From the NCBI GenBank assembly GCA_028277025.1, contig JAPYVG010000009.1, forward strand, positions 1 through 53,140: DNA of 53,140 nt, written 5' to 3'. Source of the stretch: Sulfolobaceae archaeon. Its GTDB lineage: Archaea > Thermoproteota > Thermoprotei_A > Sulfolobales > Sulfolobaceae. The position numbers were made by a program, and so were the translations under genes. Under the pieces are notes generated by a model. That model was given only the letters and a program-made list of their open reading frames with translations. It did no database searches and was not told where the DNA came from. Below are positions 8,956 to 35,634 of the stretch, one piece after another (positions within the stretch are counted from its first letter, which is position 1; each line of letters starts with the position of its first letter).

Positions 8956-9729
8956 GTGTTGAAGTTAATATCATAACCTACATAGGTACCACATACTAAC
9001 GCCTCTTATATAAAAACATTATACCGGATCCCCCTCTATAAACTCCATGAGATGTGATAGCATTTAATACTACATAGTCGAAATACTCACCTTGAAACGA
9101 TAATTTTTCAGCTAAGGCTTGTTTGAAATATGTACCTTCAATTATTTCTTCACTTCTAGTTCAGCCTTAACTTTCTTTATAACCTCTACTTCAACGACTA
9201 TTAGCCATATCTCTCTGGGAATTAGCTGAAAATCTAACATTTCTTCTGTGCCTAGTTCCTACGCCTAGAGCTTTAAGGTCTTTAATTTTTGAGGAAATTT
9301 CCTCCCTAATACCCTTGAAAAATCAGAAACAAGATCATTAGGCATTTCTACCTTATTTACATTATATGGATAAGGTCTTAACGTAATAGTAGTATAACAA
9401 TATAATGAAATAAATTATGTAAGAATTTTTTACCAAAACGTTTATTACATAGAAAATACGCCGATTTGTAGTATTAAATTAAATAATTTATTGACATTTT
9501 ACCTTGATTTAAGCTACACTTAACTGAAAATCCCTATTTTTTGCTATAGTTAAACTCTTTTTAGCCTGGACTATACTGGGTCTCCACGTCCTGGTGATGT
9601 AGTTGATAAAGTACTACTAGAAGTATTGGCTAATTAGGTCTCCTTAAATTTAAAGTAAATCAAGATAACTAGAATATTATATTATGGAAGTCAAATTTTT
9701 AATTGAATACTAGATAAAAACTGTTACAA
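8956..9729. other. Intergenic region with relics only
   Basis: No intact gene. The minus strand carries a broken gene at about 9000-9390. On the plus strand, a short frame ending near 9637 reads TGSPRPGDVVDKVLLEVLAN, which looks like the last residues of a lost protein, but nothing upstream of it is coding. The remainder is AT-rich. Confidence 0.4.
9000..9390 (-). pseudogene. Decayed gene of unknown family
   Basis: Two protein-like blocks on the minus strand lie in adjacent frames. One (about 9141-9255) includes EEMLDFQLIPREIWLIVVEV and ends in KK-stop. The other (about 9010-9137) includes GEYFDYVVLNAITSHGVY. A third block upstream (about 9260-9370) contains VEMPNDLVSDFSRVL and IKDLKALG. Together they look like one small soluble protein broken by at least two frameshifts. 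The first block resembles the start of a small antitoxin-like protein, but I cannot name it. Confidence 0.4.
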
Positions 9730-10377
9730 TTATAGACTGAAATTGAAGACTTCTTCTCCTCTCTGATAGACTGTCACGTCCTTATCTATTATCGCGTAAC
9801 ATCTGAATTTAGATGAGCTATCTACTCTAAGGTATTTACCCCATTCGAATTCATAATAGGAGTAACAACCGGCAGTCATATGGCCGTTAAGGTGGAGCTT
9901 AGGTTTGATCTGTTCTAAGGCTTGTAGCATTAATTCCGTAGCTTCATCGTATCTCATTTTAGGGTATATTTCGGGGAGGTAGGGAGGTTGGTGAGTAATT
10001 AGTACGTCTACATTTTTGTCTCTCAATCTACTTATTATTTTTAGGAACTTATTAGGAGGTATTCCGTAATTCTCGTCGTCCCCTATTAGGCCGTTAATCC
10101 CCGTGACCTTCATGTCTCCGACACTTATTATTTGACCATCTCTAATCGAGAAGTTCTTTACTATCGAGAAATTCTCATGATTACCGTAAACTGCTATTAA
10201 CTTAGTTCTAGAGAGAATATCGGAAAAATCAGCTGCGGACATCCCTTCTCCCCAATCGCCAGCCCCGATTAAATAATCCGGTTTTAGATCATCTAAAATA
10301 TCTAATAGCCATTTAACTGACTCCATTTCCTCTTTATTATCGAGGCTCTTATGTAGATCGCTTATAAATAATATCAT
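9730..10377 (-). CDS. Calcineurin-like metallophosphoesterase
   Basis: 215 residues. The five metal-binding blocks of the family are in order: SDLH (D7, H9), GAGDWGEG (D41), YGNHEN (N66, H67), THQPP (H129) and NGHMTAG (H166). These hold two metal ions and cut phosphomonoesters or diesters in the cytoplasm. It is the size of small archaeal single-domain enzymes of the YfcE/MJ0936 type, not Mre11, and lacks a capping domain. It is unlinked to a nucleotide-signalling gene, so the substrate is open. Stand-alone transcription is likely. Confidence 0.85.
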   Translation of the reverse strand: MILFISDLHKSLDNKEEMESVKWLLDILDDLKPDYLIGAGDWGEGMSAADFSDILSRTKLIAVYGNHENFSIVKNFSIRDGQIISVGDMKVTGINGLIGDDENYGIPPNKFLKIISRLRDKNVDVLITHQPPYLPEIYPKMRYDEATELMLQALEQIKPKLHLNGHMTAGCYSYYEFEWGKYLRVDSSSKFRCYAIIDKDVTVYQRGEEVFNFSL

Positions 10378-10699: not shown

Positions 10700-11248
10700 A
10701 TGTGTCCTCCTATCTCTTATCACGGTAGAGTTGTGAAAACCGAGGATAACGACCCATTTCAACATCCCGCTGTTAAGGAATGGCATAATTACTTGTTTAC
10801 GAAGTGGCGGAGTGATAAGAGGGTAGCCTTCCTTTTACCTTGTACGCAAGAAAAACCTTATTATAAATCGCCAACTCACGTTATTGCTTATTCAGTTTTA
10901 AAAGACGCTAATGTTCAGATTTACAGTGTTTCAGAACCAATGTTACTAGTCCCCAGAGAGTATGAGGACTGTTACCCATTTAGCGATTACGATTATCCCC
11001 CTTCGAAAATGACTCCCAAAGAGAAGGAGGAATTCATTCAACTACTCTCTGAGGCTTTAAAAGTGATAAGCAAACACCACGAGGTAATAATCGGAGTTCT
11101 CCCAAAACACCATTTTAATGTCGTAAGTGAAGCCTCTAAAAGAACCGGGATTAAGATAGAACTACATCATTACGGCAGGTTAGTCTTTAAAACGGTCAAG
11201 GAAGTAGCGTTGAGGGCTAAAGATCTGTCCTCTAAAGCATCTTTATAA
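10700..11248 (+). CDS. ArcS-like (DUF5591) protein, stand-alone catalytic domain
   Basis: 182 residues. The stretch LLPCTQEKPYYKSPTH (about residues 45-60) fits exactly the motif PC-x3-KPY-x2-S-x2-H of archaeosine synthase ArcS, followed by SEPMLLVPREYEDCYP, which matches the downstream SEPLxxVPxEL pattern. ArcS acts after tRNA-guanine transglycosylase in making archaeosine at tRNA position 15, adding lysine to preQ0. In euryarchaea this domain sits inside a longer TGT-like protein with a PUA domain. Here it is alone, as in some crenarchaea, which suggests a split enzyme or a different modification. It converges with the VapC gene, overlapping by 17 bases. Confidence 0.7.
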   Translation: MCPPISYHGRVVKTEDNDPFQHPAVKEWHNYLFTKWRSDKRVAFLLPCTQEKPYYKSPTHVIAYSVLKDANVQIYSVSEPMLLVPREYEDCYPFSDYDYPPSKMTPKEKEEFIQLLSEALKVISKHHEVIIGVLPKHHFNVVSEASKRTGIKIELHHYGRLVFKTVKEVALRAKDLSSKASL

Positions 11249-21236: not shown

Positions 21237-22838
21237 ATGGAGTCTGGGGCAAGGATTTTTCTTTCAACATTAAAAGAACTGGGTGTTGACAAAATTTTCA
21301 TAGTATCCGGTACGGATTATGCGGCGTTTATAGAGGAAAAGGTTAGAGATCCCTCCCTACCAGATTTTATAGTAGTTCCTCACGAGATAACTTCAGCATC
21401 TGCCGCTATTGGTTATTACTTAGCTGGGAAAATAGGGGTTACAGCAGTACACACCATTCCCGGTACTTTAAATGCTTCTGGGATTATAGTGGATGCTTTC
21501 TCTTCAAGGATACCATTAATAGTGATAGCTGGGAGGAGCCCTTATACGGAAAATGGATCTAATGCAAGCCGGAACCTAAGGATACACTGGACACAGGAGG
21601 CTAGAGACCAAGGAGAGATACTAAGACAATGGGTTAAGTGGGACTTTGAGATCAGAAGGGTTGACCAAATTGAGGGTTCAATTGTAAGAGCATTCGAAAT
21701 AGCCTTTAGCGAACCAAAAGGGCCAGTTTACATAATGATTCCGAGAGAGGTAAGCGTTGAGTTGGAAGAAAGAAAGGGTAAGGTTAAGAGAATGTCTACT
21801 TATGAGCCAGGGCCCACAACTGAAGCACTTAAAAAGGCCGAAAAGATGATTAACGAGAGCCAAAGCCCAGTAATAATTACGTGGAGGAGCGGTAGGAGGA
21901 AGGAATGGTTTAATAGTTTGAAGAGGTTTGCCGATAAGGTTGGGATTCCAGTACTAAATTACGTAGGTGAGGTCGTGAATTATGAGGGAGAAATGGGTAT
22001 TGATTATTTCGACTTAAAGAAAAGCGATCTAATTATAGTCGTAGAAAATGAAGTACCTTGGATACCTAAAAGGTTGGGAGAGGTAAACTCGCCAGTGATC
22101 AAAGTGGACGTTGAACCCCTCTATACATACATTCCTTACTATGGTTTCCCATGTGATTTATGTATACAATCGACGGTGAGTGAGTTCTTTGATAGACTAG
22201 AAGTTAAAGAGAAAGCTGAACTGAAAGAAAAAGTTAGGGAGCTTCACGCTGAGCAGGAGAGGAAAAAAGAAGAGGAAGTTGAGAGATTAAAGAAGAATAA
22301 GAAAATTCATCCACGTCTCCTCTCCTACTATATAGGTAAGTTAAGGGAAAAGGTAGTGTTTAACGAGTATCCGCTTAACCCCCGTTACGGTAAGTACTAT
22401 TACGGTGAGTATTTCGGTGACCCAGGTTTCGGACATCTAGGTTGGGCTTTGGGTGCATCTTTCGGTTATAGCTTAGGAACCGGCAAGAAAGTTATAGCAG
22501 CTGTAGGTGACGGCGCTTTCATTTTTGGAGTCCCAGAGGCGTTCTATTATGCTGTAAAGACTTATAACGCAAACGTCACGGTCATAATCTTTGATAATCA
22601 AGGTTGGCTTGCGAGTGCTGAAGCAGTTGAAGAGGTTTACCCTGAGGGATTAGCTAAGGCTAAGAAATTATTCCCCGGTGCAGATTTTACCCATTACGAT
22701 ATAGGTGCTACCGTTAAAGCTTTCAATGGATACTATAGGCTAGTTGAGAGTGTTGATGAACTCGAAGAGGGTATAACTGAGAGCGTTAATCAAAAAGGGT
22801 TAGCCGTTCTTCAAGTTATTGTAGACAGAGGGAGATGA
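21237..22838 (+). CDS. Thiamine diphosphate-dependent enzyme (acetolactate synthase/2-oxoacid decarboxylase superfamily)
   Basis: 533 residues with the three-domain ThDP layout. The N-terminal Pyr domain has the catalytic Glu in VVPHEITSASAAIGYYL (E50). The middle domain (about 190-320) binds or once bound FAD. The C-terminal PP domain has GDGAFIFGVPEAF, followed by VIIFDNQGW, which is the GDG...NN-type ThDP motif with Asn-Gln instead of Asn-Asn. A charged coiled stretch (about 335-365, EEEVERLKKNKK) joins the last two domains. Members include acetolactate synthase, oxalyl-CoA decarboxylase and benzaldehyde lyase. No regulatory subunit gene is adjacent, which argues against the main acetolactate synthase. 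The 3' end overlaps the convergent gene by 39 bases. Confidence 0.8.
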   Translation: MESGARIFLSTLKELGVDKIFIVSGTDYAAFIEEKVRDPSLPDFIVVPHEITSASAAIGYYLAGKIGVTAVHTIPGTLNASGIIVDAFSSRIPLIVIAGRSPYTENGSNASRNLRIHWTQEARDQGEILRQWVKWDFEIRRVDQIEGSIVRAFEIAFSEPKGPVYIMIPREVSVELEERKGKVKRMSTYEPGPTTEALKKAEKMINESQSPVIITWRSGRRKEWFNSLKRFADKVGIPVLNYVGEVVNYEGEMGIDYFDLKKSDLIIVVENEVPWIPKRLGEVNSPVIKVDVEPLYTYIPYYGFPCDLCIQSTVSEFFDRLEVKEKAELKEKVRELHAEQERKKEEEVERLKKNKKIHPRLLSYYIGKLREKVVFNEYPLNPRYGKYYYGEYFGDPGFGHLGWALGASFGYSLGTGKKVIAAVGDGAFIFGVPEAFYYAVKTYNANVTVIIFDNQGWLASAEAVEEVYPEGLAKAKKLFPGADFTHYDIGATVKAFNGYYRLVESVDELEEGITESVNQKGLAVLQVIVDRGR

Positions 22839-23327
22839 TACTAGTTTATCCTCAACGCTCTTGACTAACGTCTGTGGTGTAGGTAACGTGCTTAAAGCCT
22901 TCATTACGATGCCCGGTAAAAATCTGAGCCTACCTATTTCAGCCTCCATTTGGGCTAATACTGCTAACTTACCGTTAAAGACCCTAAAGCTTACTTTGTA
23001 AACCAAATTCTTTGCGTAAATTACATATGTAGGTAAGCCAGCATCGTATTTAGGCCCTTCAATCTTAGCCGCAATACTCCTTTTAAGAGTACTTCCTAAA
23101 GGACGTTTATTACTACGAAGGGGTATTACGTAAACTTCTTCATTCACTTTAGAAATATTTAAGAGTGAGGCAACAAATTCTTTATTCATTATTAGTTTTC
23201 TTAATTCATCATCACCAATCTTTAAATTTATCATAGTCGAACTGGTGAGGAAATGAGTCGGTCTACTTTTTATGTGTTGTTTGAACTCCTTCAGTGTTTC
23301 GAATTTAGTATTACAACATTCGTACAT
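22800..23327 (-). CDS. Hypothetical protein with degenerate C2H2-like N-terminus
   Basis: 175 residues, soluble. The N-terminus YECCNTKFETLKEFKQHIKS and the following PTH give a Cys-(x)-Phe-Leu-His-His pattern like a C2H2 finger, but the two Cys are adjacent, so metal binding is doubtful. The rest is alpha/beta with basic patches (RSNKRPLGSTLKRS), compatible with nucleic-acid or lipid binding. I do not recognise the family. It converges on the ThDP gene with a 39-base overlap, and its promoter lies in the AT-rich stretch after 23327. Confidence 0.5.
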   Translation of the reverse strand: MYECCNTKFETLKEFKQHIKSRPTHFLTSSTMINLKIGDDELRKLIMNKEFVASLLNISKVNEEVYVIPLRSNKRPLGSTLKRSIAAKIEGPKYDAGLPTYVIYAKNLVYKVSFRVFNGKLAVLAQMEAEIGRLRFLPGIVMKALSTLPTPQTLVKSVEDKLVSSPSVYNNLKNG

Positions 23328-23785: not shown

Positions 23786-24943
23786 TCACAGTTTTGTTAA
23801 CTGATTTGCGATCTCTAATAACTCTTTAGGACCGATACTTATATCACCATAATCTGGCGGTCTCTCTCTTAAACTTACCAGCCCAACCTTCTCCGCTATT
23901 TTACTCATCTTTTTCACGGCTTCCTTTGCCTCAGAACTGGTAAATTCACCCATTTTGACTTCAAAAGCCCAGATAGGCTTCTTCTTTTTCACAATAATCA
24001 CGTCGATGTCCTCTTTAGGGGAATAGTATTGAACACCCCCGAAATACTTTGAAAGCATTTCACCTATACTAAACTGAACCTCTCTACCAATTGGTAAATC
24101 CTTGACCTCTAAATCAGTTTCACTTATAGCGTATTTTGATTCAGCGTAAAGCGTTAATGAAAGAGGGGGCGACCTAATCTTATAATACTTCTCCTTTGAC
24201 AATGTGGGAATTTTCTGTACTAACCCCATCTTCACGAGTTTATTAACCATTGAGGATATAGTCCCCTCCCCTCCTTTAGGTTGTATTATTCCAGCAATCT
24301 CAGAAGTCTTCCATATCCCTTCTCCTATGAGTAGGAGGATTTTGTAATAAATGTCCGTGAGCTGTCTTTCCTCCTCCTTAAACACCTCCCCTATTAGTCC
24401 CTTTGCGATTAGCGAGAACTCCTTTATCCTATTAACGAACTCCTCATAACTGTTTATGAATGGAATTATCCAAGGGTCTCTGTACAGTGTTGAGAGTACG
24501 GGGTCTTTGAGTTGAATTAATACGTCTTCATAAGATATTATATCTATTTCAATCGGAGTAAACAAACCGAGCAATGGACTATTCCTATCAAATACTTTGT
24601 TAACGATACCATAACTTGAACCTATTATCACGAGAATGCCTTCCCTATCCCAATTACTTATCATAGCCCAATAAACTTCCGGTAGCCTCTGAAACTCATC
24701 TACTACTGCAACTCCTCCTTTTTGTAAAACGTGTTTGACCTCTTTAATCGCATCATCAATCCTCACTACTTTATCATCTAGTGTGATCCCGTTGTTCGAA
24801 TCGGCTATCAAAACGTAATAGTCCATTTTGAGGTTCTTCTTAACTAAAGTACTTTTACCCGTTTTCCTCCTTCCGTAAATCAAAGTCCAGTTTTTAATCC
24901 TCTTAATTTTCTCCTCTTCTCGTCTTCTAATATATAGTCCCAT
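23786..24943 (-). CDS. Archaeal ATPase (DEXX-box/ATP_bind family with C-terminal nuclease-like domain)
   Basis: 385 residues. Walker A GRRKTGKST (24-32) and Walker B VAVVDEFQ (78-85) belong to the archaeal STAND-like AAA group. A winged-helix segment follows (about 215-265: GEGIWKTSEIAGII, TISSMVNKLVKMGLVQK). The C-terminal part (DUF234-like) has DVIIVKKKKPIWAFEVKMGE, the D...ExK pattern of a PD-(D/E)xK nuclease fold. These proteins are abundant in Sulfolobales and mostly uncharacterised; some are linked to mobile elements or toxin-like behaviour. Two direct repeats at the start codon suggest autoregulation by the winged helix. Confidence 0.8.
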   Translation of the reverse strand: MGLYIRRREEEKIKRIKNWTLIYGRRKTGKSTLVKKNLKMDYYVLIADSNNGITLDDKVVRIDDAIKEVKHVLQKGGVAVVDEFQRLPEVYWAMISNWDREGILVIIGSSYGIVNKVFDRNSPLLGLFTPIEIDIISYEDVLIQLKDPVLSTLYRDPWIIPFINSYEEFVNRIKEFSLIAKGLIGEVFKEEERQLTDIYYKILLLIGEGIWKTSEIAGIIQPKGGEGTISSMVNKLVKMGLVQKIPTLSKEKYYKIRSPPLSLTLYAESKYAISETDLEVKDLPIGREVQFSIGEMLSKYFGGVQYYSPKEDIDVIIVKKKKPIWAFEVKMGEFTSSEAKEAVKKMSKIAEKVGLVSLRERPPDYGDISIGPKELLEIANQLTKL

Positions 24944-25520: not shown

Positions 25521-25925
25521 TCAAGTCTTTATGTGTAAGAAATGAGTAAGCGTAAAAGCTCCAAGACCTAAAGCTGCCAGTATTAAACTTATAATTATCG
25601 ATATTATAAAGGCCACGAACGCTATGCCTAGAGCACCTAACCAACCTACATCAAATAAAGCCTTATAAACCGCTAAAACCCCTATGAAACCTAATACTAT
25701 CCCTAATAGCGAAAGTATTGGAATACCTATTATTGCCGAGATAAAGGCAAAGATAAAGACTATTACAGCAAACACTATTATCGAAAGTAGCGTAGCTGCC
25801 ATGGCTCTTGGAAATGAGGACTCATTACTGAAGAGCTTAGAAGCTAACCAAACCGGAATTGAAGCTATAATCCATGCTACCAGAAAACCGATTATTACTT
25901 CTATTATTGATGGTAAATGAATCAT
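25521..25925 (-). CDS. Small polytopic membrane protein, four helices
   Basis: 134 residues with four predicted membrane helices, rich in Ile, Ala and Leu, and one short charged loop (SKLFSNESSFPRAMA). I do not recognise it. The start (IHLPSIIEVIIGFLVAWII) has no cleavable signal. It lies 104 bases downstream of the nurA gene on the same strand. The gap and the absence of overlap make membership of that operon uncertain. Confidence 0.55.
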   Translation of the reverse strand: MIHLPSIIEVIIGFLVAWIIASIPVWLASKLFSNESSFPRAMAATLLSIIVFAVIVFIFAFISAIIGIPILSLLGIVLGFIGVLAVYKALFDVGWLGALGIAFVAFIISIIISLILAALGLGAFTLTHFLHIKT

Positions 25926-26029: not shown

Positions 26030-27085
26030 CTAAACCCTTTTTGATAGTATAAGATTTGATATTAACATTTTATCTCTTATATCTTTGCTTAGCTTAGAAA
26101 ACAATTCGCTCTCGTAAAACCTCTTATATTTTGAAACCTCATCAGCGGAAACATTTGAGAATGTATCAGCTAAAAGTGTTAATAAAGTCAATTCAGCCTT
26201 ACCTTCAACAACCCATGGCGAGATAACACCAAGAACCTCATCAACCTTCGGCCTCTCATTAACATATGCCACATCAACCCGCACAGGTGGAGAAATGCTG
26301 GACACTCTAACATAAAGAGAAGATATCTTAAGGTCGGCTACCGACTTATAAAGGCCATACGCGTTATATAATCCCCTAACTTCGGGTAATGAAATCTTTC
26401 CCATTTCTTCCCAATCCATCCATCCTATTGCACCATGCTCTAATAACAAGTTTACTACCATCCCCTCTCTGTAGTCTAGAGAGTCTAAAATTCCTTTTTC
26501 CACTAACCTACTCACGAGAAACCTTTCTGAGAACCTCTTCGCTATCCCAATCACAACTCTGCCTTTCTTTAGTATGTCGTAAATTTTCCTAGCCCTCATC
26601 TCGGCTAATTCTGTAAGTGACGGTATGTTTTGTTTACCTACATCATTAGCTATTATTGGAGGGTCTATTATGGGGCCGTCCAAAAAGAGAACCTCACACT
26701 CATCATCTATCAATTCACTCTCCAATTTAAGCATGAGCTTTATCGAGTCGTGCCTAACAGTGTCCTCCCCATTATAATCATCTTCAATTGCCACGTCAAT
26801 TATTGGCTCACGTGGGACTACTACCCTATCACCCCTAACTTCCCCTATTACTTTAACGGCTTTAGCTACTATTAAGTACGCATCGCCCAGGTTTTCTACG
26901 TTTTTGGAACCGTCTATTGCACAGAACTTAGCGTACTTATTATTACCGAATAATAAATAACGTTCTAACCCTATCTTCTCCAACGAAACGCTTTTTAACT
27001 TGTTTATAAGCTCGTTGTATTTCTCAATGTTCTTTTCTATTATAGAATTAAGTTTAGAGTATGGGAACTCAGCCAAGGGTACCAC
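26030..27085 (-). CDS. nurA: NurA-family 5'-3' nuclease
   Basis: 351 residues. The NurA hallmarks are present: CAIDGS with the metal-binding Asp at 58, VLFLDGPI (D136), a basic VIGIAKR (about 179-184), and a C-terminal strand segment where NurA carries its later acid (PVRVDVAYVNE). NurA has an RNase H-like fold, forms dimers and chews 5' ends when docked on a HerA hexamer. Here it is last in a four-gene operon that starts with herA. The gap to the coiled-coil gene before it is four bases. It probably acts with the HerA-type protein of the same operon; the two sequence partners are therefore likely a cognate pair distinct from the housekeeping one. Confidence 0.8.
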   Translation of the reverse strand: MVPLAEFPYSKLNSIIEKNIEKYNELINKLKSVSLEKIGLERYLLFGNNKYAKFCAIDGSKNVENLGDAYLIVAKAVKVIGEVRGDRVVVPREPIIDVAIEDDYNGEDTVRHDSIKLMLKLESELIDDECEVLFLDGPIIDPPIIANDVGKQNIPSLTELAEMRARKIYDILKKGRVVIGIAKRFSERFLVSRLVEKGILDSLDYREGMVVNLLLEHGAIGWMDWEEMGKISLPEVRGLYNAYGLYKSVADLKISSLYVRVSSISPPVRVDVAYVNERPKVDEVLGVISPWVVEGKAELTLLTLLADTFSNVSADEVSKYKRFYESELFSKLSKDIRDKMLISNLILSKRV

Positions 27086-27089
27086 ACTT

Positions 27090-27872
27090 TCATTTGTACT
27101 CTACTACTATCCTAACTTTCCTCATTAACAGTTCCATAACGTTTGGGTAATCCCTTAATTTACTTACGATGTCCGCGAGTTTACCCACCTCATTTAGCCC
27201 CATCTCAACCCTTCTGTTAGTGAGTAACATATCTATGAACTCGCCAATTTCTTTACCTATCTTATCAATTATTGAGCCCTTTATCTCGTGAAGTTTATTC
27301 AAGTATTCTTCATAAACTCCTTTAACTTTCACAAGTTCGCATAAATCGTCTTTAATTTCCATACTTTCTATATCTGGGGGAGTTGTAAACAGCTTTACAA
27401 ACTCTTTAACCCCTTCTATCCTTACCTTTTCCTCCTCGATCTCCTCTATTAATCTCCTCTTCTCTTCCTCAATCTTAACCTTAATATCATTTAACGTGCT
27501 TTCAAAATCTGGTAATACTCTTTGGATATGATTTACCATCTCGCTTATTTTTTCCAATCTCTTTTCTAGATTTGGTAAGTCTTCAAAAGACTTTATCTCA
27601 TCTAGTGAAAGTATCTCCTCCTTAACCTCTTCAACCTCTAATTCGTCCTCTGGAAATTCGAATTTATAACCGCATTTCTCGGCATTTCTCACTTCGCCCT
27701 CAACTTCCACCCTTAGCTTATCTAGCTTTTCAACCCTTCTTGAAATGAAGTCCATGCCTTTAGCTATTTCCCCTATAAGTGAAAGTATCCTATCAGCCTC
27801 ACTTATATAACTATTAATTCTCGTATTCTTCTCCCTTACGGTGTTATATAACTCCTCCAACTCCTTAATCAT
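27090..27872 (-). CDS. Coiled-coil protein of the herA-nurA operon
   Basis: 260 residues, soluble, with heptad-like charged helices over about residues 1-75 and 105-165 (IEEEKRRLIEEIEEEKVRIE is typical), separated by an acidic hinge (FEFPEDELEVEEVKEEIL). There is one Cys in NAEKCGYKF and no P-loop. No known enzymatic domain seen. The start overlaps the ATPase stop by four bases, so synthesis is coupled. Its place in the operon is where mre11 or rad50 would be in the canonical end-resection operon. It may be a structural adaptor between the large ATPase and NurA or HerA. Confidence 0.7.
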   Translation of the reverse strand: MIKELEELYNTVREKNTRINSYISEADRILSLIGEIAKGMDFISRRVEKLDKLRVEVEGEVRNAEKCGYKFEFPEDELEVEEVKEEILSLDEIKSFEDLPNLEKRLEKISEMVNHIQRVLPDFESTLNDIKVKIEEEKRRLIEEIEEEKVRIEGVKEFVKLFTTPPDIESMEIKDDLCELVKVKGVYEEYLNKLHEIKGSIIDKIGKEIGEFIDMLLTNRRVEMGLNEVGKLADIVSKLRDYPNVMELLMRKVRIVVEYK

Positions 27873-30817
27873 TCTACCACCTTCTTAAGCGAGTTTAAGC
27901 TCTCGTTTATCTGCCTTACCTTTTCCTGTAATATCTTGTATTGTTGGTCTATACTTCTATTTGAGATCTCGAAGTTAAGTTTTTCCACTAAGTCTAATAT
28001 CTTCCCTAATTCCTTAACCTCCTCAGCGAAGGGTATACACTCCTCGGAACGCGAAAGGACTGCAATCACTTCACTCTCCTTATAAGCTAAGTAGATAAAT
28101 TCTGAAAGCGGATAGACGAAGTCCCTCCTATTCAAAGCTTTAAAGAGGCCCCCCACAAATCCTTGTTCCTTCCCTAACCTTTGTATGCACGACACGGCCG
28201 ATTTACGTAATTGGCTTTCCTCAAAGTTTGTGAGCGTTGATCTCAAATAATCACTCACTTTAATTATAACTGATTGGTCTACAGCGTAAGGTCTGAGTTT
28301 AGATGATATAGAGTCCAGTTCTTTCAGCTTTTCAGAGATCACAGAAAGTATGGTTATTTTCTTAGCCTCAACGCTCTGTATCAATCCCCTAACAGACTCC
28401 TCTAAATCCTTAAGGAATGAAACAGTTATTACAACCTCCCTTAAATCACTGCTATTAGGCAAGTATTTTTCGAGCAAGTCTATAAGAAATTCCGCATTTA
28501 TTATTTTAGCCTCCCTTTGTTTTATCGTAAGTATATCTTTATCTAGTCCCTTCACCTTTTCCTTAAGCTGGGATATTGAACCCTTCAAATCATCTATAAT
28601 TCTTGAAAGCCTGTTGCTTAACTCCCTCTTCTCCTTCTCGTCCAAATAATCTAAAACCTCACCACTTCTGAAAGAGAAGTATAGGAGTGCATTAAGCCCG
28701 TCGCTCAAAAATCCCTCTTCCTTCTCTATGACGTTCTTGATTATTTGAGATATAATTCCTCCGCTCTTCCCTCCCCTAGTAATTAAGTCATTATAGACCT
28801 CAATTAACTTACCCCTTTTCCTCAACTCGTTTACTAAGAACTTAATCCAGTATTCCCCCGTGGAGGAAAGAGTTTTCTTAAAGTTGATGAAGTCCTCACT
28901 TAATGAAATTATTTTGTAGGTATTAAGCACTGAAAGCTCTTTTCTCAATTCCTCAGCTGATGTAATGTCCTCGAGTACGAATCCCTCACTTATCTTCCTC
29001 TCTCTACTAAACGACTTCACCTCGTCCCTTAGTTCAGAGAGTGTTTTAAATAACTCCTCTATCGAAACTTCCTCCCACTTACGTGCGTATGGTGGATAAT
29101 AAAGTAAGTAGTTAAGTACTGCAGTCCTCAATTGATCCTTAGTATAATATAAGTCTAAGACCTTGCTCCTCTTAGCCTTTATATTCTCCCAAACCCTTTG
29201 AAGATCTTTTAGCTCTCTATCAAATATTATATTGAAAGTAGTCTCATTCAGCTGATATTTGGGTAAATAACTCAATTGTATTAAGTACTTCTGTATAGGG
29301 AAAGTCAGCGGTATGAATGGTTGAGGGGCTTCGGAATTGGGGCTACCTATATATACTGTAAAATCAGTATCACCAACGTTCTTATCACTTCTATCAACGT
29401 CTACTATCTTTACCCTATAAACAAAACTGAAATTAGGCCCTTGTCTGTTGTCACAAACGAATTCAACTAAGTAATCCAGCACGGGCTTCCTCTCAATGCA
29501 TGTAAGTTCATCGTCATTATTTCTCTTAATAGCTATTTTGATTAACTCTTGTAACCCCTTTAATACTAATGGGTAAACTTGATTATATTGTGAGGGCGAA
29601 GTCAGCATTGATACATACTTATTATACTCCTCTAGGAACCCACTTGAAGCGTCTATACTTATTACGAAGTCCTTGAGTTGAACGTCAAATACGCTCTCAA
29701 ACTCCTTCCATCTGGGTACGAAAACTATTTCTCCCTCAAGCTTTTCATAAGCCTCCTTAATTAGTTCCTCCTCGGTTATGAATGGGTTGAACTCCCTAAC
29801 GTCCTCTGGTAATACGACATAAAGAGAATTATCAAAACTTCCAGAATACTTAAATACTACAATGTAGTCCTCTAGTTTTTCTACATCCTTACCGTTAACG
29901 AACTCCCTCCAATAAGAATATTTCACAAGCTTTGCTTTAATAGTGCCTTCGACATTCTTCGAATACCCCTTCATTAAGAGTTCTGCCCTATCCTCCCTCA
30001 CGTCGGATTTAATGAACTTATGAGACGTAATCGTAAAGCCCTCCTCTATCTTACCGACTTTTAGTATATCGAGTATTTCCATAGGATCTGGGGAATCTAA
30101 GTTACAAAGCACGACATTTACAATGTTAGTTATATTCCTCCTACTTACGGGGATAGTGTAGTAAAGGAAATTAAGGTAATCCACTAATTCTGGTCTTTCC
30201 ATAACTTGTTTTGAGAGGCAATAAAGCATTGCGAAATACTCTATTTTACTAGCGTCTTGGAGTTCCACAGTATAATTCTTTATCCTATCAATAATAGCAA
30301 TATAACTTTCGCCTAAATACTTCTTTACCAATCCTTGTGGCATAAATACTTTATCGTAACCACCCGGTGTAGTAAGCATCATAATTACTGAATCAAAACC
30401 CTCCTTCTCGCTTACTTTCTTCAGGCTTGTGAAGAACTCTTTAACACTCTGCTCTTCTCCCTCTAACCCCTCTAAGTTCTCGACCTCGTCAATTATAAGG
30501 ATTTCCTTATTATCAACGTCTATATGCCCCCCGTCTTTAATTATTTCATCTATTTTCTTTACTGTTATCTTGTAATCCTTCACCTCTTCTTTTATTATGT
30601 TCATTAAAGTCGTCTTACCGTTACCCCAATCACCCTTAACAACAATGAGCAAAGGAGTTACTTTTCTCTCTTTAATATAGTTTAACAGCACTTTCTCGAC
30701 CAAGTAGTACCTAATTCTGTCCTTAAATTTCGACTCAAGCATGCATTTATACGCGTTAAGTACTTCCTCTCCTTGACCCGTTTGGGATATAAGTTTCTTA
30801 CATAGCATCTCCCCCAC
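27869..30817 (-). CDS. Large P-loop ATPase with long helical C-terminal region, herA-nurA operon
   Basis: 982 residues. The ATPase domain is N-terminal: Walker A GDWGNGKTT (62-70), Walker B EILIIDEVE (105-113), and a sensor-like strand MMLTTPGG (146-153). The GxWGxGKT form recalls KAP and AAA/Orc-like NTPases. Because Walker A and B lie within 50 residues, this is not Rad50 or SMC, whose motifs sit at opposite ends. A middle beta-containing region (about 270-540) is unassigned. The C-terminal third is mostly charged helices with coiled-coil character (about 560-980, e.g. REVVITVSFLKDLEESVRGL). Its start overlaps herA by 20 bases and its stop overlaps the coiled-coil gene by 4. Possible role: loading or gating factor for HerA-NurA, or a foreign-DNA sensor. 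Function is inference. Confidence 0.75.
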   Translation of the reverse strand: MGEMLCKKLISQTGQGEEVLNAYKCMLESKFKDRIRYYLVEKVLLNYIKERKVTPLLIVVKGDWGNGKTTLMNIIKEEVKDYKITVKKIDEIIKDGGHIDVDNKEILIIDEVENLEGLEGEEQSVKEFFTSLKKVSEKEGFDSVIMMLTTPGGYDKVFMPQGLVKKYLGESYIAIIDRIKNYTVELQDASKIEYFAMLYCLSKQVMERPELVDYLNFLYYTIPVSRRNITNIVNVVLCNLDSPDPMEILDILKVGKIEEGFTITSHKFIKSDVREDRAELLMKGYSKNVEGTIKAKLVKYSYWREFVNGKDVEKLEDYIVVFKYSGSFDNSLYVVLPEDVREFNPFITEEELIKEAYEKLEGEIVFVPRWKEFESVFDVQLKDFVISIDASSGFLEEYNKYVSMLTSPSQYNQVYPLVLKGLQELIKIAIKRNNDDELTCIERKPVLDYLVEFVCDNRQGPNFSFVYRVKIVDVDRSDKNVGDTDFTVYIGSPNSEAPQPFIPLTFPIQKYLIQLSYLPKYQLNETTFNIIFDRELKDLQRVWENIKAKRSKVLDLYYTKDQLRTAVLNYLLYYPPYARKWEEVSIEELFKTLSELRDEVKSFSRERKISEGFVLEDITSAEELRKELSVLNTYKIISLSEDFINFKKTLSSTGEYWIKFLVNELRKRGKLIEVYNDLITRGGKSGGIISQIIKNVIEKEEGFLSDGLNALLYFSFRSGEVLDYLDEKEKRELSNRLSRIIDDLKGSISQLKEKVKGLDKDILTIKQREAKIINAEFLIDLLEKYLPNSSDLREVVITVSFLKDLEESVRGLIQSVEAKKITILSVISEKLKELDSISSKLRPYAVDQSVIIKVSDYLRSTLTNFEESQLRKSAVSCIQRLGKEQGFVGGLFKALNRRDFVYPLSEFIYLAYKESEVIAVLSRSEECIPFAEEVKELGKILDLVEKLNFEISNRSIDQQYKILQEKVRQINESLNSLKKVVE

Positions 30818-32432
30818 CTCCGCTCAAAACGCTTATTATATCACCTTCAGAACCAATTGAGGACTCTAAGAGCTTATCAAACGGGATTACAACTCTAGCC
30901 GGTATTTCTAATGGGTTTATTAACCCGGTAACTACAGCTTGACCTCTTGGTAAGTTCACTAACTCTCTGGCGATATAGTCCGAAAGACCACCTGCCACGG
31001 AACGTATATATTCAACGTCCTCGTGATAAATCCTATGGAAGATAAAGGAGTTCAACATGGATAATACCACTTTGTCTACGAAAGCCGGCCTCTGTGAGAT
31101 TAAAATTAATGAAGCACCGAACTTCCTACCTTGCGTAGCTATCGTAGCCAATATGTCCTTAGTTATGTAGGCATTTATTGGGTAATAGGAGGAGGGTATG
31201 TAATTCTGTGCCTCTTCAATTACATAGGCTATGAACCTATTTTCGCCGTTCATCTTTCTCTTTACTAAATAATTATACAAAAGTCTAGCTATATAACCCA
31301 CAACCATTTGTTTAGTCGCAATATCCATCCCCGGTGCCCCGGAGGCTGAAAAATCAATTATGGCTAAGGCCTTACTTCTGAAGATCTCCTCTAAAGTGTC
31401 TTCATTAAAGGACTTTTGAGAATATGATGAGGAGATCAGCTTAAACCTCTCAACTTTGTTCACAAACGAGTGAATAGCGTTGAGTACAGCCCTCTTAGTG
31501 TTCACCGTATACCCCAACGTGTCCTTTCTGTTTGAGACAATTTCTTCTAGCTTTCCCTCAAGAATTTTAACCCCTTCTTTACTTCCTAGCATTACGTTAA
31601 AGTCGTACCCCTCATTATACAACTCATTAAGTGTGAGTTCCAATAAATTGAGCTGTAATGAAGCCTGAGTTGTTGAATCCATATACTTAGAAGAGATGAT
31701 CATGTAAGATAAGTCACTTGTGGAGAAGACGTTTAAGTCCATATAAAAGTGCTCTTTCATTTCAGTAAACGTATACCTAACCACCTCCTTTCTACACTCC
31801 AAAAGCTTCGCCCTCTTTACCACATCAGTAGCTAAGTCAGTATAATCACCGTTAGCGTCAATTACTATCATAGGGATTGCAGTACATTCACCGTTAACAC
31901 GAATGTTGGAAAAAAGATATATCAAGTACCTCATGTCATAACTCTTACCGGAACCGGTCTCACCAAATATACCCATATGCATTGGAAGGGAATTGATGTT
32001 GAGAAGTAAAGGTATCTCGGTATTAACAAGTTTGCCATATTTTATGTATCTCGGGTCTTTAAGTTTCTCACCGTATAGGTATTCCTCAGCGTTATTAGGA
32101 AGTTTTTTAACTAAGTTTCCGGGCAAAGAGACCCTAGCCTTATCGCTCCTTATAACTTTAAGTGTTGATAGTATTACGGTCTTGCTCTTTAAAAGGTCTA
32201 TTACAGCCCTTGAATTCATTAGGGTGTGAATGAGCGGAGAGTCGTTTGTATAAAATTCATTAATATACTCGTATTTTTCTACTTGCGCTAACCCGTTATT
32301 ACCTTCCTTGTCCTCGATTAAGAGTATTTCTCCTATCTTTATGTCGTGATCAAGGCGTATTAACGCCTTTACAGTATCATGTGTCCCACCCTCAAGCACT
32401 ATACCAATCTCTTCTGTCGTTGTAAACGTCAT
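30798..32432 (-). CDS. herA: HerA-family DNA translocase/helicase
   Basis: 544 residues. An N-terminal beta-barrel (HAS-like, about 1-110) precedes an FtsK/HerA ATPase core: Walker A GETGSGKS (157-164), MIVIDANGDYTDL, Walker B IAYVIEEAQ (401-409), sensor region GRKFGASLILISQRPA (435-450), and a C-terminal strand and arm (LPRGQAVVTGLI). HerA forms hexameric rings that pump double-stranded DNA and activates NurA. The EEAQ Walker B variant is common in HerA relatives. First gene of the four-gene operon; the minus-strand sequence before it (about 32460-32470) holds AGATATAATG, a likely TATA box. Confidence 0.88.
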   Translation of the reverse strand: MTFTTTEEIGIVLEGGTHDTVKALIRLDHDIKIGEILLIEDKEGNNGLAQVEKYEYINEFYTNDSPLIHTLMNSRAVIDLLKSKTVILSTLKVIRSDKARVSLPGNLVKKLPNNAEEYLYGEKLKDPRYIKYGKLVNTEIPLLLNINSLPMHMGIFGETGSGKSYDMRYLIYLFSNIRVNGECTAIPMIVIDANGDYTDLATDVVKRAKLLECRKEVVRYTFTEMKEHFYMDLNVFSTSDLSYMIISSKYMDSTTQASLQLNLLELTLNELYNEGYDFNVMLGSKEGVKILEGKLEEIVSNRKDTLGYTVNTKRAVLNAIHSFVNKVERFKLISSSYSQKSFNEDTLEEIFRSKALAIIDFSASGAPGMDIATKQMVVGYIARLLYNYLVKRKMNGENRFIAYVIEEAQNYIPSSYYPINAYITKDILATIATQGRKFGASLILISQRPAFVDKVVLSMLNSFIFHRIYHEDVEYIRSVAGGLSDYIARELVNLPRGQAVVTGLINPLEIPARVVIPFDKLLESSIGSEGDIISVLSGGGGDAM

Positions 32433-32603
32433 ACTACTTGTTTATCTCCCATATACATTATATCTTTTATTATGGTAATACCCGTTTTACGCTATAATAC
32501 CCCGAATTTGAGTATTCCCATTTGAGAGCCAAACAGAGTAAACTTATATCACCTCACGTTGCCCAGACGATTTGTAGACAGTGTTTAACATTATAAATAA
32601 TAA

Positions 32604-32985: not shown

Positions 32986-33960
32986 ATGCCACTAAGACTT
33001 AGATTAAACGGTAGAGATAAACAGATACTTAGATCCACCGATCTAGCCTTCCTTTACAAACTCGTAAGAGTGATGAAAAACCCCAAGACCAAATTCAATG
33101 AGGTAGAGTTCGTTACAAAAGGAGAAGATTACTTATTTAATTACGTAAACAAGAACGTTGGGGGAGTTGATGAAGGTAGGAGGAACTTCCTAAAGGGGAT
33201 CTTAATTGGTGTCGCCGTTACAACAGTAGCTGGGATTGTTCCGGGATTAAGAGTTTTAATCCCTCCAGTTCAAAGTGTTTCCGGATTCCCTAAGACTCTG
33301 ATTCTAGACTCATCTGGTAATCCCATTAAAGCCTCTACGTTGCCGGTCAATAGTCCCATAATCATGATCTTCCCTTACCCATTACAAGACGAGATCAACT
33401 TCTTATTGAATTTGGGTGACGAGAACGGGAACCCGGTAGAAGTACCACCTACTACCGTTGTAGTTCCTCAAACCGGTGATAAGTACCAGTTCCCAGGCGG
33501 GGTAGGCCCTCATAAATCCATAGTTGCTTACAGTGCGATCTGCCAACACTTGGGCTGTACACCGCCATACATTCATTTCTACCCTCCAAAATACGTTAAC
33601 ATATCACAAGTTACCGCACCGGAACCTAACAAATTAACTGTGCAAGCTGTTCAGGCTGCACAAAGCGCTAAAGTCCCGGCAATAATACATTGTGACTGCC
33701 ACGGCTCAACCTATGATCCCTATCACGGTGCGGCTGTCCTAACTGGACCAACAGTCAGACCTTTACCTACTATAGTCTTAGAATGGGATAGCTCCACGGA
33801 TTACTTGTATGCTATAGGAGCTGTTGGAGTTCCTACCTACCCAATGAGCAGTAATGGTGTACCGTCTAAAGACCCTAGTGTGGATCTCGACGAATCACAG
33901 TTTGGCGCTGGTGTTGGGGACAAGACTAAGATATCTGAGACTAACCCGTTCTCCTCATGA
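32986..33960 (+). CDS. soxL2: Rieske iron-sulfur protein, SoxL2-like
   Basis: 324 residues. The 2Fe-2S boxes are CQHLGC (C186, H188, C191) and CDCHGS (C236 or C238, H239); the second box normally reads CPCHGS. A twin-arginine motif RRNFLKG (65-71) precedes the single N-terminal membrane anchor (about 72-92), so the cluster faces outside the cell. The 64-residue cytoplasmic N-terminal extension before the Tat motif is long. Between the boxes lies an insertion (about 195-230), as in Sox-type Rieske proteins of Sulfolobales. With the cytochrome b gene at 34006 it should form a quinol-oxidising bc1-like unit. In Sulfolobus acidocaldarius the order is cbsA-cbsB-soxL2-soxN-odsN; cbsAB is absent here. 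Confidence 0.85.
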   Translation: MPLRLRLNGRDKQILRSTDLAFLYKLVRVMKNPKTKFNEVEFVTKGEDYLFNYVNKNVGGVDEGRRNFLKGILIGVAVTTVAGIVPGLRVLIPPVQSVSGFPKTLILDSSGNPIKASTLPVNSPIIMIFPYPLQDEINFLLNLGDENGNPVEVPPTTVVVPQTGDKYQFPGGVGPHKSIVAYSAICQHLGCTPPYIHFYPPKYVNISQVTAPEPNKLTVQAVQAAQSAKVPAIIHCDCHGSTYDPYHGAAVLTGPTVRPLPTIVLEWDSSTDYLYAIGAVGVPTYPMSSNGVPSKDPSVDLDESQFGAGVGDKTKISETNPFSS

Positions 33961-33970
33961 GTTTAACGCT

Positions 33971-33980
33971 TTATTTTTTT
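33971..33980 (+). terminator. T-run between soxL2 and soxN
   Basis: TTATTTTTTT follows the soxL2 stop by 10 bases. It may reduce read-through, giving more Rieske than cytochrome b transcript. Confidence 0.3.
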
Positions 33981-34005
33981 ATAAGGGCTTGAGGAGGTGA
34001 AAATT

Positions 34006-35634
34006 ATGGGAAATAGGGTTTCCAACTGGTTTAAAGAAAGAATAAATATGGATGATTTACCCTTCTTCAGAACACCGGATTATATGTATCACGTAGGTGA
34101 TTGGTTAGGAGCACTAGTTGCTGCCGCGTTCTTTTATACAGTAATTTCTGGATTAATCCTACTATTGTATTATGACCCTGCTGCGGGTTACCAGTCCACC
34201 GAAACAATTATTAACGAAATACCTTACGGCTCAGTAGTGCTTTACAGCCATTTGTACGGAGCTTATGCTATGATAATCCTAGCTTACGTGCATATGTTTA
34301 GGAACTATTTTGTGGGGGCTTATAAGAAACCAAGAGAACTAGTATGGATTCTGGGAGTTCTAATGTTAGCATTGACTTTAGGAGCTTCGTTCTTAGGTTA
34401 CAGCTTAATAGGGGATGTCCTCGCAGTTAGTGCTGTTGACGTAGGTGCTGGTATTCTCGGAAGCCTAGGTTTAAGCTCCTTAGTTCCCATACTGTTCGGT
34501 AATTATTCAGCCGGCGACTACACTAGAGTTTTAGCACTGCATATAATCCTCGTAGCACTAATAGGCGTCCTATTCCTAATCCACTTTTTCCTAGCAGACG
34601 TGCAATATGGGATGATGCCATCTAGAAAGGTTAAGGATAAAGCTCCAGCTGTTTACCCTAAATCCGAGTGGCAGAAATTTAACCCATGGTGGCCGAGGAA
34701 CTTCATTTACATGATGTCACTAATATTCTTAACGTGGGGGTTCATACTTATAATTCCAAACGCATTAGCTTACTTTACATTCCCACAGATAGCGAACCCG
34801 TTCTTAAACCCCAAACCAGCACCACCGCCTAATAGCCCTGCCGCAGCAACAGTCACTACTTATCCGCCGTGGTTCTTCCTATTCGTTTATAAAATAGCAG
34901 ATTTCCCCGGTAGTGTCTTAGTAGATATGACTATTGCACTCTTCATACCCATAATTTACTTATTCGTAGTGCCTTTCATAGATAGGAGCCCGCACCTACA
35001 CCCGCTTAAAAGAAGGGTGTTCACATGGATAGGAATATTAATGATAGTATTCCTAATACAAACCTCATTATGGGGGGATTTAGCACCAGGTGTCCCTGTG
35101 ACTATGAGCCAAGTCTTTGAGGTCTACTTACCCCCAGCAATAATAAGTGGAGTCGGAATATTCCTAATACCGTGGGAAAAGGTGAGCAAAGGAGTGAACA
35201 AGGGGTTGAGCAATCCACCTACAATGTTAGCGTTTACTTTCATAACGTTAGCCTTCGCATCATCTATGATATACTTCCTAACGACATTATCATTAGCCTC
35301 TTTAGGTGCTGTACTTTCTCTTGGCTCAATTTTCGTAATTCTAGCAAAGTCATTAACACCTTATGTGATAAGGGCTCAACAAGACGAGAAAACGGTTAGT
35401 ATTGAAGAGGCGTCTAAGGTACTAGAAAAGAAGAAGAGGATTGCCCAAATTATAATGATTATTCTCTTCATCGTTGCAATACCAATTGTGGTAACTATGT
35501 GGACTATCCCGCCTACCGGCTACTATTCCAATTTGTTCGGTATTGATTTAGGTGTGCTCTTCTTAATACTCGGTGAGGAGTTCTCATTGTACCATTACGT
35601 GGTTTACAAGAAACCGGTCGAGAAGGAGGAATGA
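34006..35634 (+). CDS. soxN: Cytochrome b, SoxN-like
   Basis: 542 residues. Haem ligands are visible as two His-x13-His helices: HLYGAYAMIILAYVH and HIILVALIGVLFLIH. The Qo-site motif is PPWF (in TYPPWFFLFVYK) where most cytochromes b have PEWY, an archaeal variant. About 12 membrane helices, more than the eight of mitochondrial cytochrome b, with a charged loop near 435-455. The start is the ATG at 34006: GAGGAGGTGA at 33991-34000 is a near-perfect Shine-Dalgarno, which makes the GTG at 33997 part of the ribosome site and not a start. It pairs with the Rieske protein upstream to oxidise quinol. Confidence 0.85.
   Translation: MGNRVSNWFKERINMDDLPFFRTPDYMYHVGDWLGALVAAAFFYTVISGLILLLYYDPAAGYQSTETIINEIPYGSVVLYSHLYGAYAMIILAYVHMFRNYFVGAYKKPRELVWILGVLMLALTLGASFLGYSLIGDVLAVSAVDVGAGILGSLGLSSLVPILFGNYSAGDYTRVLALHIILVALIGVLFLIHFFLADVQYGMMPSRKVKDKAPAVYPKSEWQKFNPWWPRNFIYMMSLIFLTWGFILIIPNALAYFTFPQIANPFLNPKPAPPPNSPAAATVTTYPPWFFLFVYKIADFPGSVLVDMTIALFIPIIYLFVVPFIDRSPHLHPLKRRVFTWIGILMIVFLIQTSLWGDLAPGVPVTMSQVFEVYLPPAIISGVGIFLIPWEKVSKGVNKGLSNPPTMLAFTFITLAFASSMIYFLTTLSLASLGAVLSLGSIFVILAKSLTPYVIRAQQDEKTVSIEEASKVLEKKKRIAQIIMIILFIVAIPIVVTMWTIPPTGYYSNLFGIDLGVLFLILGEEFSLYHYVVYKKPVEKEE

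Follow-up and report, generated by a model that had tools for sequence, protein, structure and literature searches.

A HerA-NurA operon with a large AAA+ ATPase in Sulfolobaceae and its proposed link to DNA modification by TGT-like and DUF5591 proteins

A stretch of 53,140 nucleotides from a Sulfolobaceae archaeon (assembly GCA_028277025.1, contig JAPYVG010000009.1, positions 1 to 53,140; referred to as the window) harbors four consecutive minus-strand genes encoding the DNA translocase HerA, a large ATPase, a coiled-coil protein and the nuclease NurA. We found this operon to be conserved in Sulfolobaceae and to co-occur there with two further genes, one for a paralogue of the tRNA-guanine transglycosylase (TGT) family and one for a stand-alone DUF5591 protein, relatives of which are also encoded by Sulfolobales viruses. 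With a confidence slightly above even, we interpret the operon as the restriction half of a 7-deazaguanine DNA modification-restriction (defense) system, in which the TGT-like and DUF5591 proteins would be the marking half.

Conservation of the operon and its partner genes

A first-pass annotation made from the window alone had suggested a family search combined with a plot of gene neighborhoods. Using a profile of the ATPase, full-length relatives were detected in 18 out of 229 genomes belonging to the class, and another six gave short or weak matches. All 18 carriers belong to the 31 Sulfolobaceae genomes searched, and each contains the whole gene set. In all 19 loci (the window and the 18 genomes) herA, the ATPase gene, the coiled-coil gene and nurA follow each other in one order on one strand, with intergenic distances of -26 to +6 bases, while the lengths of the ATPase and the coiled-coil protein range from 960 to 1020 and from 208 to 268 amino acids (aa), respectively. 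Because order and strand are identical in 19 loci, the arrangement is not a product of chance. The flanking genes vary among the genome groups, and thus the set holds together in changing surroundings. It was a NurA profile that first led to a metagenome-assembled genome of Sulfolobus sp. with the identical four genes. Searches of protein databases with the ATPase matched Stygiolobus only (7995 and 7990 best-sharing candidates scored), and the search with NurA gave eight proteins, one of them from Acidianus. A mobile-element origin was considered and rejected, as no plasmid match was obtained for the ATPase, NurA or TGT and no viral-contig match for the ATPase.

In 9 of the 18 genomes, genes for a TGT-like protein (about 295 aa) and a DUF5591 protein (about 195 aa), which overlap each other, lie on the same strand directly upstream of herA, at a distance of 22 to 291 bases in eight genomes and of 1076 bases in one. 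The smaller protein was assigned to DUF5591, a domain of the archaeosine synthase ArcS, by Pfam (locus L001) and by the ArcS model (window copy). The TGT-like protein is too diverged to give a Pfam match. With its own profile, TGT proteins from distant loci are retrieved at 2e-23, and two of these match Pfam TGT (3.5e-28 and 8.4e-24). With a joint TGT profile, the archaeosine tRNA-guanine transglycosylase 1iq8 was matched at 2.4e-25 and the DNA-guanine transglycosylase 7ui4 at 1.7e-8. The TGT-like protein covers residues 23 to 338 of the 582 residues of 1iq8, i.e., the catalytic part only. Counted along the alignment, its invariant aspartates D40 and D186 correspond to D95 and D249 of 1iq8, which we take to be the catalytic pair.

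The TGT-like paralogue (E <= 1e-92) is present in exactly the 18 operon genomes among the 31 Sulfolobaceae; eight of these had contributed rows to the profile, which detected the remaining ten. Twelve of the 13 operon-less genomes disclosed only frames of 500-522 aa or pieces thereof (E 1e-8 to 1e-22), and one was without any match. All but one of the 18 operon genomes also contain a separate TGT frame of 498-518 aa. Stand-alone DUF5591 genes were restricted to the 18 operon genomes and G164, where the gene (L152 around 9296-10200) is located beside a C-terminal TGT remnant (82-aa frame, E 1.2e-4) and where the ATPase profile found no match; this locus apparently reflects decay of the system. 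The odds of the 18-in-31 match would be 5e-9 if the genomes were independent, which they are not.

Seven of the nine genomes with an unlinked pair have its nearer gene approximately 21 kb (G051), 26 kb (G091), 117 kb (G115) or, in four genomes, much farther away from the operon, and in G012 and G060 the pair is on a different contig. The window itself contains a DUF5591 gene 15 kb from nurA, belonging to the same family as the herA-linked copies of nine relatives. Its position apart from the operon fits the genomes with an unlinked pair. In both Stygiolobus genomes an additional NurA-domain protein of 420-422 aa (L105:8923-10185 and L147:7271-8539) adjoins the unlinked TGT-like gene; both proteins match NurA, that of L105 with a Pfam value of 1e-17. 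Moreover, a gene of the window (22800-23327) encodes a 175-aa protein with a C2H2-like N-terminus, and S. azoricus has a 45% identical gene (L105:13758-14306) close to its TGT/DUF5591 pair. It is possible that this protein is an extra part of the system or a leftover of old synteny.

The features of the window are as follows (coordinates, strand, description, evidence):

30798..32432, minus: herA, DNA-translocase ATPase, 544 aa (Pfam DUF87/HerA 8.6e-26; PDB 4d2i HerA 1.5e-19; HerA tree)
27869..30817, minus: large ATPase, 982 aa (N-terminal KAP_NTPase 1.4e-7 at residues 42-139, followed by a long C-terminal part)
27090..27872, minus: coiled-coil protein, 260 aa (weak Pfam matches only; position between ATPase and nurA)
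26030..27085, minus: nurA, nuclease, 351 aa (Pfam NurA 4.9e-13)
30611..30634, minus: Walker A motif GDWGNGKT of the large ATPase (W64, G65, G67 and K68 each invariant in 21 sequences)
30476..30493, minus: Walker B motif IDEVEN of the large ATPase (D110, E111 and E113 invariant in 21 sequences)
32459..32468, minus: TATA-box-like sequence aaaagatata about 30 bases 5' of the herA start (read by eye)
10700..11248, plus: stand-alone DUF5591 (archaeosine-synthase domain), 182 aa (Pfam DUF5591 5.5e-18; ArcS model 6.9e-17; profile of the herA-linked family 1.8e-72)

The window has the gene order herA - ATPase - coiled coil - nurA with overlaps of 20 and 4 bases, followed by a gap of 4 bases. Open reading frame (ORF) coordinates and Pfam agreed with the initial description of these four ORFs in sizes, overlaps and gap. 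Start positions are uncertain: a deposited protein 99% identical to the large ATPase (filed under Stygiolobus sp.) consists of 979 aa and begins at the next ATG, and since this may also be the start in the window, the overlap of herA and the ATPase gene could be reduced to 11 bases. The same protein match places the window in Stygiolobus. The putative TATA-like element is likely to be a single promoter for all four genes.

The proteins of a second HerA-NurA machine

According to a structure model, the N-terminal part of the large ATPase belongs to the AAA+ proteins, with Cdc6/Orc as top matches on a par with those to DnaA and to the proteasome and p97 ATPases. This model had a predicted local distance difference test score (pLDDT) of 70.8 (about 90 in the core) and gives no information on the C-terminal two thirds; it was used for the fold search in place of the full-length model, whose mean pLDDT was 63.7. 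The protein is presumed to be a sensor or loader. BLAST divides the coiled-coil genes into two families, one comprising the three Stygiolobus-type genes (window and two Stygiolobus genomes), the other one the remaining 16. Compared to 15 counterparts, the protein of the window showed 19-24% identity, revealing a fast-evolving component, and the two families were equated by position and this identity. In NurA, residues D58, E122 and D136 are invariant columns in nine sequences and coincide in the alignment with acidic residues of canonical NurA; presumably they constitute the active site.

A Rad50/Mre11 identity of the two middle genes was rejected, as their products are a KAP/AAA+ ATPase and a coiled-coil protein exhibiting neither a metallophosphatase domain nor the Rad50 zinc hook. 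The Rad50/SMC matches of the 260-aa protein (best 7.8e-6, below the cut-off) span the coiled coil only. By comparison with Pfam and Rad50 models we thus confirmed the earlier view that both proteins are no homologues of Rad50 and Mre11. PADLOC matches to LmuB, JetC, ZorA, QatA and PifA were weak and confined to the coiled coil or the P-loop, and they were dismissed. Pfam disclosed no Sir2 or DUF4297 partner among the four genes; the partner nuclease is NurA.

In a HerA tree, the operon HerAs (13 rows) formed one clade (100/99) that joined 16 HerAs of distant loci (99/95), apart from three canonical HerAs as well as from six further proteins presumed to be HerA-like. The tree contains long branches, so that its depth should be read cautiously. 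A separate herA-mre11-rad50-nurA operon, confirmed by Pfam, exists in G079, and Stygiolobus azoricus (G115) possesses the canonical layout as judged by gene sizes and order. The data support the conclusion, already drawn in the first-pass annotation, that the four-gene operon encodes a second, parallel HerA-NurA machine. Its HerA is of a different lineage from the canonical one. Additional HerA-like genes (L102:8828-11878, L106:9585-12282 and L107:9387-12477), each adjoining a NurA-matching gene, were encountered in G079 and S. azoricus, amounting to several parallel HerA-NurA pairs per genome.

Relatives in distant taxa and in viruses

Twenty further loci (L002-L021) were retrieved by NurA similarity alone. 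In most of them, nurA and herA are accompanied by a gene for a large protein (about 1400 aa in its complete form) with a shared P-loop context, typically GEWGEGKT. An alignment of 11 of these proteins matched the Sulfolobaceae ATPase over 840 columns with 99.6% probability (hhalign). With profiles built from Sulfolobaceae only, TGT was detected in eight and DUF5591 in six of the 20 stretches, several of the others ending within or beside the gene set. Distant archaea as well as bacteria have nurA, herA, the larger relative of the ATPase and a TGT in combination. The DUF5591 genes of L008 and L016 were left uncounted, because they were found only by a profile including them and not by the independent Sulfolobaceae profile. 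At the genome level, a TGT-like gene of 336-412 aa (E <= 4e-48) was identified in 16 of 18 distant genomes (the 20 genomes except those of L005 and L013), and in 9 of 11 when the seven contributors to the profile were omitted. Throughout the 229 genomes of the class, a hand tally gave the ATPase in 45 (18 by profile A3 and 27 by profile A8 at 1e-15), the TGT-like gene (1e-30) in 60 and both in 38. Outside Sulfolobaceae, the link between operon and TGT is looser. Some lone TGT-like genes elsewhere in the class (L170, L172, L174, L175, L180, L183, L184) reside beside a gene for a protein of 867-880 aa, whose start resembles ribonucleotide reductase (ATP-cone-like, judged by eye); for this lone-TGT branch a link to DNA precursors is conceivable.

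We also searched 50,697 phage and virus records, using the TGT of G156 (L054) as query. TGT was present in 35 records, every one a Sulfolobales virus. The proteins of STSV1, STSV2 and STSV4 showed 70-71% identity, those of SIRV and related rod-shaped viruses and of the Stygiolobus rod-shaped virus 32-39%. Five records contained DUF5591 (two each of STSV1 and STSV2, and STSV4), and in contigs matching STSV1 and STSV2 in length this gene overlaps the TGT gene. Viral and host TGTs formed one clade (100/100), the STSV copies falling among the host copies with moderate support. In the available part of Hutinet 2019 (PMC6884629), 12 Ligamenvirales and two Bicaudaviridae are listed among the archaeal viruses with 7-deazaguanine genes, Sulfolobi are described to carry genes of the G+ pathway, and 7-deazaguanine bases to shield the DNA of a phage from restriction.

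Proposed function and alternative explanations

Building on these computed observations, we infer that the TGT acts on DNA rather than RNA, and we propose the following course for the resulting base, the restriction steps and the antiviral function. The DpdA-like TGT would insert preQ0 in place of guanine in the cellular DNA; the cells probably produce this base anyway for their tRNA. The DUF5591 protein would further convert preQ0 in the DNA, probably towards an archaeosine-like base. The large AAA+ ATPase and its coiled-coil partner may then inspect the DNA or load the motor, and a HerA hexamer with a NurA dimer, loaded on unmarked DNA, would pump it in and degrade both strands; the HerA-NurA of T. 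kodakarensis cuts both strands, according to the part of PMC12977600 available. Viruses possessing their own TGT (and DUF5591) might escape by marking their DNA. There is, by our estimate, an even chance that this represents a widespread class of immunity in archaea and bacteria, in which a dedicated HerA-NurA restriction engine is licensed by a giant AAA+ ATPase, the cell's own DNA is marked by TGT and an ArcS-type domain, and captured marking genes let rudiviruses and large spindle viruses escape.

Several results weigh against this interpretation. The TGT/DUF5591 pair does not adjoin the operon in half of the 18 genomes, and a profile search disclosed no TGT-like ORF of at least 80 aa in the window. 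In an RpoB tree, which comprised 29 of the 31 genomes (two had no RpoB match; one was represented by pieces only), the operon requires only four changes, and TGT agrees with it in three of three independent contrasts, too small a number to reach significance (p 0.25). In the class, seven genomes, among them fragments or small genomes, have the ATPase without the TGT-like gene, and the reverse holds for 22. Neighborhoods of 20 of these 22 were read (all except G015 and G150) and contained no large ATPase; in 18 of the 20, the surroundings of TGT were free of HerA, NurA, ATPase and DUF5591 members of these families, the exceptions being one HerA-family neighbor (L186) and one DUF5591 (L182). G015, counted as TGT-only, has an ATPase below the cut-off (L003). 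Five flanking genes checked at one locus (L054) are not defense genes. Saccharolobus, the listed host of most virus records with TGT, was not identified among the genomes searched. For STSV1, the modification found earlier is on cytosine, not guanine, as stated in the available part of the Borg paper (PMC11208441); STSV1 DNA furnishes no evidence for a guanine mark. 7-Deazaguanine in the DNA of operon carriers is a prediction from their genes.

The operon might instead encode a second machine for DNA end processing or fork repair, with the ATPase and the coiled-coil protein replacing Rad50 and Mre11 as DNA-end tether and loader for HerA-NurA and with TGT and DUF5591 as unrelated passengers. 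HerA-NurA is best known from resection, the operon is compact, and the five flanking genes at L054 would agree with such a role. We regard it as unlikely, though, as the operon occurs in only 18 of the 31 family genomes and is therefore dispensable, co-occurs exactly with TGT and DUF5591 in the family, is adjacent to them in archaea as well as bacteria, and exists besides a canonical set in G079. About equally unlikely, and placed slightly lower, is a defense system without any mark, in which the ATPase and the coiled-coil protein sense infection and activate HerA-NurA, while TGT and DUF5591 serve a separate function and merely share the distribution. Defense systems that couple HerA to a nuclease are known, and the unlinked pairs, the TGT-like genes occurring alone elsewhere and the lack of a TGT-like gene in 7 of the 45 genomes that carry the ATPase in the class point in this direction; the exact match throughout the 31 genomes of the family, the combined loss in G164, the recurrence of the linkage in distant taxa and the viral TGT with DUF5591 argue against it.

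A role of the TGT-like and DUF5591 proteins in modifying RNA (tRNA or transcripts), the operon acting in an RNA-modification-linked stress or defense pathway, is still less likely. It would be in accordance with the best PDB match, the tRNA enzyme 1iq8 rather than the DNA enzyme 7ui4, and with ArcS acting on tRNA. However, the TGT-like protein, at about 300 aa, lacks whatever follows the catalytic domain in ArcTGT (582 aa), 17 of the 18 genomes have a separate TGT frame of 498-518 aa, the partners are DNA enzymes, and Hutinet 2019, in the part available (PMC6884629), appears to class the viral relatives as DpdA-type. It is very improbable that this lineage merely uses the operon as its housekeeping HerA-NurA set. 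The canonical set was judged from genomes of relatives and not from the window's own genome, which leaves some room for this explanation, but these relatives have the canonical operon, the operon HerAs form a separate clade, and each of the 31 family genomes gave two to seven NurA match segments (some genes give two segments). The first-pass annotation had called defense plausible and replication-fork or plasmid handling equally open. Its first part stands, while the parity does not: the tie to TGT and DUF5591, the DUF5591 gene of the window and the viral copies lead us to favor defense based on DNA modification.

With regard to known systems, the proposed modification-restriction defense is near Dpd and BREX-Related Capture (BRC) in logic, and was assigned to neither. 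BRC, itself a predicted system, resembles it, in the available part of PMC12839542, by a HerA/FtsK translocase, an AAA+ ATPase (in BRC of the Orc/Cdc6 type), TGT in some loci, a proposed 7-deazaguanine self-mark, a capture-and-degrade logic and its occurrence in archaea and bacteria. The same text assigns to BRC a PglZ effector, a STAND NTPase, DUF4007 and GNAT, and does not mention NurA. The operon in turn has the NurA nuclease, DUF5591 and, in Sulfolobaceae, also the coiled-coil protein. PglZ matches were obtained in 24 of the 31 family genomes (14 above the cut-off), while six of the 18 operon genomes had none. None of the matches in the 31 genomes is situated within 20 kb of an operon on its contig, and membership in BRC was rejected because no PglZ is linked to the operon. 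HerA is common to both. The resemblance of the ATPase to Cdc6/Orc is tied with others, and the Pfam scan did not disclose DUF6079, the Orc/Cdc6-type family of BRC. With the bacterial Dpd system the operon shares a TGT-family DNA transglycosylase (DpdA) combined with a restriction module; a DpdA-type TGT, whose DNA specificity is predicted, is present in the 18 operon-bearing relatives and not in the window. The restriction module is HerA-NurA-AAA+ in our case, and DUF5591 probably takes the place of DpdC. The DpdC family PF03883 (assignment according to the available part of PMC12839542) was found in none of the 31 genomes and in 4 of 14 control genomes. No Dpd match appeared when the four genes of the window were scanned with PADLOC, and no dedicated search for DpdB and DpdD-DpdK was made.

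The canonical herA-mre11-rad50-nurA operon encodes the same HerA and NurA families, likely with the same hexamer-dimer pump-nuclease, but here unrelated proteins replace Rad50 and Mre11, the HerA lineage differs and the distribution is patchy. The anti-phage systems HerA-Sir2 and HerA-DUF4297 likewise couple HerA to an effector nuclease, which in the operon is NurA, accompanied by two further proteins plus TGT/DUF5591. Another NurA-HerA paralogue pair of Crenarchaeota, the Pyrobaculum nurA-csm6-herA near CRISPR arrays, is linked to Csm6 and CRISPR, and no large ATPase is mentioned in the available part of the paper (PMC3396285). As anticipated by the first-pass annotation, which knew of no description of the four-gene set, none of this gene combination was found among the papers listed from the literature searched, of which most subscription papers and bioRxiv preprints were not part; DUF5591 is mentioned in no paper of that literature.

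Some genes around the operon were also inspected. Just downstream of nurA, the window encodes a membrane-type protein of 134 aa (25521-25925), relatives of which lie near the operon in G060 (41% identical, L067:15579-15983) and G012 (37%, L068:1163-1537). Genes for a Rieske protein and cytochrome b (32986-35634, Pfam) are divergent from herA and presumably are respiratory genes unrelated to the operon. An AAA_14-type ATPase of 385 aa (23786-24943) has a 26% identical counterpart near herA-nurA in the Pyrodictiaceae locus L010; as this is a common family, the recurrence may be a coincidence.

If the proposed defense function is true, the archaeal HerA-NurA "resection" pair would become the nuclease arm of a DNA-modification defense, and archaea would gain a cellular 7-deazaguanine restriction system. 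There would also be a reason for the transglycosylase in the 35 Sulfolobales virus records, rudiviruses and large spindle viruses included. The 7-deazaguanine idea is checkable by mass spectrometry in culturable species, and it bears on whether HerA-NurA serves repair or antiviral defense.

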